In this document: positions 49,949-51,297 of the stretch, in pieces | How the letters are laid out: every line of letters starts with the position of its first letter | Numbering within the stretch: position 1 is the stretch's first letter | NCBI RefSeq assembly: GCF_900182615.1 | Contig: NZ_FXTE01000005.1 | Span: forward strand, 1-64,000 | DNA from: Ruegeria faecimaris | Lineage (GTDB): Bacteria; Pseudomonadota; Alphaproteobacteria; Rhodobacterales; Rhodobacteraceae | Reading direction: 5' to 3' | Length of the DNA: 64,000 bases | Made by a program: the position numbers and the translations under genes | The notes under the pieces: model-generated | Seen by the model: only the letters and a program-made list of their open reading frames with translations | What the model was told of the DNA's origin: nothing | Databases searched by the model: none

Positions 49949-50103
49949 GGCGCTTCCGGCAATTTCTGAACTACTCGGTTCACTCAACAATCGGCCCGAT
50001 TTCGGCCACCAGAGTCAAGATTTCATCAAGATGACCAAACGTCCGGTTTGCACCCCAACAGGTGGCTTGACTCGGGGTCTGCATAGCCGCTAGCGATGTG
50101 ATG

Positions 50104-50292
50104 ATGGTTCTTGCCCCGGAATTGGGGCGGGATGAAAAGGGAACACGGTGCGGTCTGCCCCGGCGATGCCGGAAAGGGCCAACTCCGCGACTGCCCCCGC
50201 AACTGTAAGCGGTGAGCAATGCCGAAATACCACTGGCCCCAGGGCTGGGAAGGTCGGCAAAGCGACGACCCGCAAGTCAGGAGACCTGCCAT
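50104..50292 (+). promoter_or_regulatory. Cobalamin (B12) riboswitch
   Basis: The sequence holds the characteristic B12 element: GGGAACACGGTGCGG, GACTGCCCCCGCAACTGTAA followed by GCGG (the B12 box), and AAGTCAGGAGACCTGCC at the 3' end, in the right order over about 190 nt. When adenosylcobalamin or methylcobalamin binds, such elements usually shut off the downstream gene. Here it precedes the Cys-rich gene at 50391 by 98 nt, with an RBS hairpin between them. Confidence 0.95.
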
Positions 50293-50361
50293 CGTATCGA
50301 AACCGAAACTCGGGCGGGGTGTCCGGGCAGGTCGTCAGCGCGCTGTCACACCTGATCCTCA

Positions 50362-50384
50362 CCCTCCGTCCTGCGCGCGGAGGG
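50362..50384 (+). promoter_or_regulatory. RBS-sequestering hairpin (riboswitch expression platform)
   Basis: CCCTCCG (50362-50368) pairs perfectly with CGGAGGG (50378-50384), enclosing a nine-base loop. The right arm contains the GGAGGG Shine-Dalgarno sequence of the gene starting at 50391. A stem that hides the ribosome-binding site is the expected output device of a translational B12 riboswitch. Confidence 0.7.
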
Positions 50385-50390
50385 CGCATT

Positions 50391-50795
50391 ATGATCTGGA
50401 AGACAAAAACACACGAATTCACCGCGTCCGTCTGTCAGAGGACCGGGAAACCCTGCCCCGCCCTTGCCCAAATGGCACGCGCCATGGCCGAGGCGATGGC
50501 GACGGCAACGCCTGCGACATCCAAAACATTCGAGGTCGAAGGCACTAGCGATCTGACCCATTGCACCGAAGGCTGCACGGCCCGTTTTCGGGCCCAATCA
50601 GAACAGATCAGGGTCTATTGCGGCACCAGCACGGACACGCCGACAGAAAAGCTGGACGCCTATGGCGACATGATGTTCGGGCCGGAGTTCATCCAGAAAT
50701 CCGCTGGTTTTCTGTCAGAACCACCCTGTGCGATGCTCGACGTTTCGACCCTGCCGCCGCGCAGCGACAGTATTCCGTATCAAGTGTCTGCCTGA
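50391..50795 (+). CDS. Riboswitch-controlled small Cys-rich protein (DUF1636-like)
   Basis: This is a 134-residue protein with cysteines at residues 15, 22, 58, 62, 77 and 113. The arrangement CQRTGKPC, then HCTEGCTARFRAQSEQIRVYCG, recalls the DUF1636 group of ferredoxin-like metal-binding proteins found near cobalamin genes, but the match is by eye. The ATG at 50391 has GGAGGG six bases upstream, which also rules out the long upstream frame through the riboswitch. No membrane segment is visible. Its riboswitch suggests a role in B12 acquisition, cobalt handling or a B12-sparing function. It is followed by a terminator at 50811-50828. Confidence 0.75.
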   Translation: MIWKTKTHEFTASVCQRTGKPCPALAQMARAMAEAMATATPATSKTFEVEGTSDLTHCTEGCTARFRAQSEQIRVYCGTSTDTPTEKLDAYGDMMFGPEFIQKSAGFLSEPPCAMLDVSTLPPRSDSIPYQVSA

Positions 50796-50796
50796 T

Positions 50797-51297
50797 TCAG
50801 GGAAGGGTTCGGGCCGGCAACCCGGCCCAGTCCTTTTGCGCGTTGGTTTCCACCGCGCAGGGCCGCACTGCACGCAACCGCCGAAGCGCTTGGCCAGGCG
50901 CTTCGCCGCATTCCACCATTAGCCGCATCACAACCATCCCCGAGCGTCCGCACCCACCGCGGCAATGCACCAGCACCTTGCCGCCACTGGCAAGGACATG
51001 TTGGGCGGCGGCGCTGGCTTGCGGCCAAAGCGCCTCAACCTCAGGCGTGGGGGCGCCGAAATCGCGGATTGGAAGGTGGACCCAGGCAATCCGTTCGCAC
51101 TGCAGGTCCGCGTCGAATGACAGCCCGCCAGAATGCTGGAACTCATCCAGAGTAGTCATCGAGATGACCAGGTCCGGCGCCCAATCCCGGATTACTGCGA
51201 AATCCCCAGCATAATCGCCCGTGACACCCGGCAGTGGGCACAGAGCGATCTGCCCTTTGCCCAATCCAAGAGGGTGAATTACAAAACTCTCCAACAC
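50797..51297 (-). CDS. Cys-based protein/dual-specificity phosphatase family
   Basis: This is a 166-residue cytosolic protein with the phosphatase signature HCRGGCGRSG (Cys112 nucleophile, Arg118) and a likely general acid Asp79 in LPIRDFGAP. It is related to DSP/tyrosine phosphatases; the substrate could be a protein or a phosphoinositide-like or nucleotide ligand. The start is uncertain: a TTG at 51297 lies five bases after AGGAG, and I see no better ATG. It is convergent with the riboswitch-controlled gene, and the end of its frame overlaps that gene's terminator. Confidence 0.75.
   Translation of the reverse strand: MLESFVIHPLGLGKGQIALCPLPGVTGDYAGDFAVIRDWAPDLVISMTTLDEFQHSGGLSFDADLQCERIAWVHLPIRDFGAPTPEVEALWPQASAAAQHVLASGGKVLVHCRGGCGRSGMVVMRLMVECGEAPGQALRRLRAVRPCAVETNAQKDWAGLPARTLP
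50811..50828 (+). terminator. Terminator of the riboswitch-controlled gene
   Basis: This is a perfect GGGCCGG-CAAC-CCGGCCC stem followed by AGTCCTTTT on the plus strand. It lies inside the 3' end of the convergent phosphatase gene. Confidence 0.65.

Follow-up and report, generated by a model that had tools for sequence, protein, structure and literature searches.

In the window, the 64,000-nt stretch of Ruegeria faecimaris DNA analysed here, a cobalamin (B12) riboswitch stands upstream of a single gene coding for a divergent, cysteine-shifted relative of the DUF1636 proteins. As the best explanation of the whole, with a probability of about 0.5, we propose that this single gene forms a B12-regulon unit of its own, in which a kissing-loop switch would hide the Shine-Dalgarno (SD) sequence and the gene product would act as a ferredoxin-like redox partner. 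The identity of the riboswitch is well supported, as is, at the level of sequence comparison, the family link to DUF1636.

The covariance model of the cobalamin riboswitch aptamer (RF00174, gathering score 31.5) matched positions 50088-50307 (+) with 129.7 bits (E = 2.5e-32) over its full length (model positions 1-189 of 189). A 134-aa open reading frame (ORF; 50391-50795, +) with six cysteines (C15, C22, C58, C62, C77, and C113) started with ATG 83 nt downstream of the aptamer, and its SD sequence, GGAGG, was located at 50379-50383, 7 nt upstream of the start codon. An earlier note on this DNA, made from the letters alone, had described a complete cobalamin riboswitch followed by a stand-alone, unnamed Cys-rich protein of 134 residues with six cysteines, and all of this was borne out. 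Compared with seven relatives, the nucleotide differences in the ORF clustered at codon position 3 (e.g. 39/20/66); this bias, together with the presence of copies of the same type (window type) in 23 of 196 genomes, indicates that the gene is real. That no other cobalamin gene is near holds for the neighbours identified within about 5 kb, two of which were typed by Pfam/NCBIfam and among which RsgA-like, DnaX-like, and RecR-like ones were recognised by eye. The gene had also been credited with its own terminator. A terminator-like hairpin of 7 GC pairs followed by AGTCCTTTTG was indeed present at 50811-50828 (+), within the 3' end of an ORF that is phosphatase-like and convergent (50797-51297, -), but it is weak evidence, as a stretch of 1.2 kb contained two such sites and 1.2 would be expected from shuffled sequences. 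The window also contained a Rhodo-rpoB RNA (RF03074; 13846-13939, -, 83.6 bits) and a bacterial small SRP RNA (RF00169; 47780-47878, +), the latter about 2.2 kb 5' of the riboswitch and found in several related loci as well. In Ruegeria pomeroyi DSS-3, a 188-nt cobalamin riboswitch homologue detected by RNA sequencing is listed as antisense to SPO1974 (PMC4809877).

The unit was conserved well beyond the window. A single-sequence search matched 32 of the 196 genomes of the order (Rhodobacterales), and one match, in G086 (L029), was dropped as spurious, since it had two internal stops, its locus lacked a riboswitch, and the stretch read as other genes. This search was superseded by that with a profile of 27 family members (A2), which matched 54 of the 196 genomes at one place each. 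Of these, 23 were window-type genomes (E < 1e-20, among them the genome of the window) and 30 had a second type of protein (ABC-type, described below), with G094 as a single divergent case. RF00174 was present in all 54 loci (the window plus 28, 20, and 5 loci); the gene lay downstream of it on the same strand in 28 loci and in 25 more, in which the profile match started 107-150 nt past the aptamer. Because the riboswitch lies just upstream in 54 of 54 loci, the protein can be regarded as a member of the B12 regulon, and control of the window gene by B12 is very probable. The link to B12 or cobalt economy that the earlier note had surmised is thus a strong one, all the more so as relatives of the gene head B12-biosynthesis and ABC-transporter operons. 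Named relatives in public genomes came from Ruegeria (16 of 17) and from Rhodobacteraceae bacterium KLH11 (1 of 17). At the level of the class, 8 of 385 genomes were matched, five of them outside the family; G342, from another family of the class, had a match at E = 1.2e-24 together with the riboswitch and the window-type cysteine motif, and three other, weak matches outside the family were without RF00174. A weak class-level match in G526 (L135) was accompanied by two RF00174 matches of 129.9 and 37.5 bits, arranged in tandem on the same strand. In G016 (L105 9031-9232, -), the window-type gene was located 36 nt past the aptamer, without the GGAGG stem-loop considered below.

The window protein gave no significant match in Pfam, NCBIfam, or the PDB sequences; IalB and alcohol dehydrogenase, the best lines, were below significance and were rejected as identities. 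The comparison with DUF1636 (PF07845, gathering score 31.6) that had been suggested earlier gave no match for the window protein at E values up to 1, and the protein is accordingly not a member of PF07845. Its relatives came closer: 17 of 41 aligned relatives matched DUF1636 at E up to 1, the best at 6.6e-31, and four looser members (L017, L020, L025, and L026) scored 14.5 to 18.8 bits. When alignments were compared with hhalign, the window type matched five riboswitch-linked ABC-type DUF1636 proteins (A4) with a probability of 98.1 (E = 8.7e-14). One of these five (L028), tested individually, passed the Pfam DUF1636 cut-off of 31.6 with 50.3 bits. With the canonical DUF1636 proteins alone (A3, 18 proteins drawn from 30 loci plus L051 and L052), the match was weak (probability 60, E = 8.5e-5), which counts against the family reading. 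L023 was omitted from the alignment A1 on account of long insertions. In an unrooted tree of 79 rows, built on few columns and with some long branches, the window type and four looser members formed one side of a 100/99 branch and the canonical proteins one side of another, with the ABC-type in between. Furthermore, G004 carried both a window-type gene and a separate riboswitch-DUF1636-ABC operon, so that the two types are separate paralogues in that genome. The picture of a protein without relatives therefore gave way to that of a divergent DUF1636-like paralogue, and on these comparisons its descent from DUF1636 stock appears highly likely.

Aligning 27 window-type rows jointly with 27 of the ABC-type and 18 canonical ones, in window numbering, revealed how the cysteines differ. 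The canonical rows had C12, C15, C54, and C58 throughout (18 of 18) and C62 in 15; the ABC-type rows had C12, C15, C22, C58, and C62 in all 27 and C54 in 24; and the window-type rows had C15, C22, C58, C62, and C77 in all 27 and C113 in 24. Neither C12 nor C54 occurred in any of the 27 window-type rows, so that the canonical set of four is incomplete there, and the loss of these two residues counts against a ferredoxin reading. On the other hand, C15, C22, C58, and C62 (C-x6-C ... C-x3-C) were invariant in 41 aligned rows, which gives the window family four conserved cysteines in two pairs, the second of the form C-x3-C, as in thioredoxin-like ferredoxins. Since the ABC-type bears both cysteine sets, it offers a path for a shift of the ligands. 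In a DUF1636 protein of G058 (L109), the cysteine motif was tandemly duplicated (VACMAGCDRPCTVACMAGCDRPCTVAY).

An earlier prediction placed DUF1636 among the thioredoxin-like [2Fe-2S] ferredoxins (PMC4520260). The structural model of the canonical paralogue agreed with this: it matched the R. capsulatus thioredoxin-like ferredoxin 9JN8 with a Z score of 20.0 (rmsd 1.9, 115 aligned) and 1M2A from Aquifex with a Z score of 9.9 (rmsd 3.1, 91 aligned). 9JN8 was also the PDB sequence match of the canonical paralogue (E = 7.2e-32); a literature search found no paper on 9JN8. For the window protein, AlphaFold2 gave from a 41-row alignment a model with a pLDDT of 88.5 and a similar order of strands and helices. 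Against the PDB, this 41-row model gave no Foldseek match under E = 0.001, and the best VIA match was a pseudopilin with a Z score of 4.7. No thioredoxin-like ferredoxin was among the structural matches listed for the window model, which, for a model from 41 rows, counts tentatively against the ferredoxin reading.

The genomic contexts of the relatives pointed to B12 synthesis and transport. Three cobalamin riboswitches were found in the genome of the window. One precedes DUF1636, cobW, cobN, and cobG, the products of the last three scoring above the NCBIfam cut-offs, with further cob genes recognised by eye. Another precedes a small cbtB-like ORF (by eye), and another DUF1636 gene lies on the other strand about 1.5 kb from that riboswitch. 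Near this second riboswitch, G000:C1:54670-55164 (-; L053 14671-15165) encodes a 164-aa His-containing protein of no Pfam family, convergent with a divergent DUF1636 gene. Among 20 loci of canonical DUF1636 scanned (L055-L074), 18 had the riboswitch, the exceptions being L064 and L067. The presence of DUF1636 and that of CobN agreed in 195 of 196 genomes (158 with both, 37 with neither, and 1 with DUF1636 only), although the Fisher value of this association overstates independence because the genomes are related. CobN shares its profile with BchH, and 21 genomes whose best E values were about 1e-81 to 1e-93 were counted as CobN-negative, these matches probably representing BchH; the CobN-positive count is 158 by that rule and 157 by the cut-off of the tool itself.

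The ABC-type genes were followed in 28 of 30 cases by a same-strand ORF with the P-loop motif of an ABC ATPase, and no such ORF was found in the approximately 1.4-1.9 kb inspected at the 23 window-type loci. For L114, the only operon to be fully typed, the partners were ABC_tran, Peripla_BP_2, and FecCD, encoded by genes with 4-nt overlaps; in NCBIfam, F420-0, siderophore, and B12 transporters were ranked for it, all below the cut-off. The binding protein of this transporter had matches at 1e-10 in 12 of 20 genomes and none in the genome of the window. In G097, a transposase-like ORF (by eye; L125 2391-3206) occupied the place expected for the riboswitch and DUF1636 gene of the ABC operon, and RF00174 was absent from that stretch.

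Next, the leaders were compared with regard to the element that hides the SD sequence. The earlier note had assigned this function to a hairpin whose right arm is the ribosome-binding site. Such a hairpin does exist at 50362-50384 (+), with the arms CCCTCCG (50362-50368) and CGGAGGG (50378-50384) forming 7 perfect base pairs, and it was favoured when the window leader was folded alone (P = 0.81). It was not, however, the conserved element: an exact CCTCC 3' of the aptamer occurred in only 7 of 35 leaders, whereas an unbroken 4-bp stem that exposes the SD sequence as its loop was found in 45 of 46 leaders, one with a G-T pair and a few from near-identical strains. In the window, this stem (GCGC-GGAGG-GCGC, the proposed P13/L13) occupies 50375-50387 (+). 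With 22 further leaders, GGAGG was present at the stem-loop position in 67 of 71; its absence from the other 4 counts against this reading. Over these 67 leaders, pairs 1-4 were kept in 66, 67, 64, and 58, respectively, and the exchanges included, at pair 3, C-G to G-C (6) or T-A (1) and, at pair 4, G-C to T-A (15) or A-T (1). When the register was slid by +1 or +3, the pairs were kept in 0, 10, 8, and 17 or in 3, 20, 16, and 35 leaders; the high values at +2 (56, 46, 9, and 31) are due to the GCGC repeat. The stem-loop after the aptamer is thus conserved as a structure with compensatory changes, in the manner of a P13. When folded alone, the window-type leaders gave a probability above 0.5 for upstream pairing of the SD sequence in 6 of 28 and for the SD-in-loop stem in 19 of 28. 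In the ABC-type leaders, those outside the window type, upstream pairing prevailed in 21 of 28 and the stem in 2 of 28, which counts against the SD-in-loop reading.

In published cobalamin riboswitches, L5 of the aptamer and L13 of the platform are joined by a kissing loop (PMC9600662). The corresponding L5 region of the window, CTGCCCCCGC (50191-50200, +), is a candidate partner of the SD loop by virtue of its invariance and of this published contact; it was identical in all 34 aptamers listed and, on visual inspection, complementary to that loop. Because L5 is invariant, covariation lends no support to the contact. Judging from conservation, the SD-in-loop stem is probably the switch element, as in an L5-L13 kissing-loop switch. 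Plentiful adenosylcobalamin would bind the aptamer, L5 would then pair with the GGAGG loop of the downstream stem, and the SD sequence would be hidden and translation stopped; when B12 is scarce, the SD sequence would be free and the protein made. A different arrangement, in which the CCCTCCG arm sequesters the SD sequence in this lineage and a helix of GACCTGCC (50283-50290) with GGCAGGTC (50326-50333) provides the alternative fold with no kissing loop, draws on the pairing probability of 0.81 in the window leader and on that helix, whose 8 bp were reached by none of 50 shuffles. We nevertheless consider it unlikely, given the rarity of CCTCC among relatives and the compensatory changes that preserve the SD-loop stem. 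Among window-type leaders, 13 of 29 had this helix with at least 7 bp, against 1 of 30 of the ABC-type, so that it is lineage-limited; it possibly forms without the ligand, in competition with closure of the aptamer.

As regards function, the protein presumably descends from DUF1636, a stock of putative thioredoxin-like ferredoxins, other members of which are found at the head of riboswitch-controlled cobW-cobN-cobG or ABC-transporter operons. A metal centre, most likely [2Fe-2S], might be held on the shifted set C15-x6-C22 ... C58-x3-C62, and the protein might serve as a redox partner when corrinoids or cobalt are acquired or activated, for example by reducing corrinoid cobalt ahead of adenosylation. 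That it handles corrinoids or cobalt in a redox or metal-related role is, in our estimate, slightly favoured. To our knowledge, no reductase activity or partner of the window protein has been described, which counts against the redox reading. The protein could instead be a cobalt or zinc metallochaperone or buffer, binding a single Co(II) or Zn(II), made at low B12, and routing cobalt to CobW/CobN. The loss of the canonical C12 and C54 with the gain of C77 and C113 would suit such a protein, as would the DUF1636 gene close to the riboswitch of the cbtB-like cobalt transporter gene and the neighbour that follows canonical DUF1636, CobW, a cobalt-delivery protein (PMC7689651). The four cysteines in the order C-x6-C ... 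C-x3-C are nevertheless still invariant, and G016 keeps the window-type protein and its riboswitch although CobN and DUF1636 were not found there. This one genome suggests that the protein works beyond cobalt insertion, and on balance we regard a metallochaperone as improbable.

Lone genes under B12 riboswitches often encode B12-independent isozymes. The protein might accordingly support a B12-independent process at B12 depletion, such as class I ribonucleotide reductase or MetE-type methionine synthesis. In the 23 window-type genomes, however, MetE exceeded the cut-off in none and class I NrdA in only 4, which indicates that these genomes depend on B12, and the genome of the window encodes two B12-dependent ribonucleotide reductases. 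This pattern fits a protein that helps the cell to acquire or activate B12, not to do without it; as the relatives also accompany genes of B12 synthesis and transport, a bypass function is very improbable. Returning to the redox reading, a more specific form of it is a dedicated B12-scarcity protein with slid ligands and its own B12 switch, a protein that activates corrinoid, whether scavenged or newly made, by reduction. In this form, which is tentative and rather doubtful, C12/C54 would have been traded for C22/C62, C77 and C113 newly acquired, and the gene freed from operons in B12-requiring hosts; we hold this account of its origin to be equally speculative.

If true, such a protein would fill the place of an electron donor that is missing from aerobic B12 metabolism. 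Within the order, the occurrence of canonical DUF1636 follows that of the aerobic cobaltochelatase CobN almost perfectly, and it usually comes first behind a B12 riboswitch, and a search of the open-licence literature found no report tying DUF1636 to cobalamin. In the window type, this uncharacterised partner is set apart as one gene behind one B12 switch, in a marine bacterium that depends on B12; therefore, a role in B12 metabolism can be tested by one deletion and one purification.

The unit resembles several known systems. With published L5-L13 kissing-loop riboswitches it has in common the full aptamer above the gathering score, the L5 sequence, and the short stem-loop afterwards; unlike in those, the loop is the SD sequence itself, the output is a lone gene, and the contact and the ligand response are putative. 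With 9JN8 and 1M2A, the window family shares two cysteine pairs, the second C-x3-C, a likeness that runs through the canonical paralogue; unlike that paralogue, the window protein's own model matched neither structure, and its [2Fe-2S] centre is putative. With canonical DUF1636 (PF07845), the window protein shares riboswitch control, length, the C15 and C58 columns, and profile similarity through the ABC-type, whereas it lacks C12 and C54, has C22, C77, and C113, is without a Pfam match, and stands alone. The ABC-type DUF1636 shares with it the riboswitch, the SD-loop stem in many leaders, and the cysteines C15, C22, C58, and C62.
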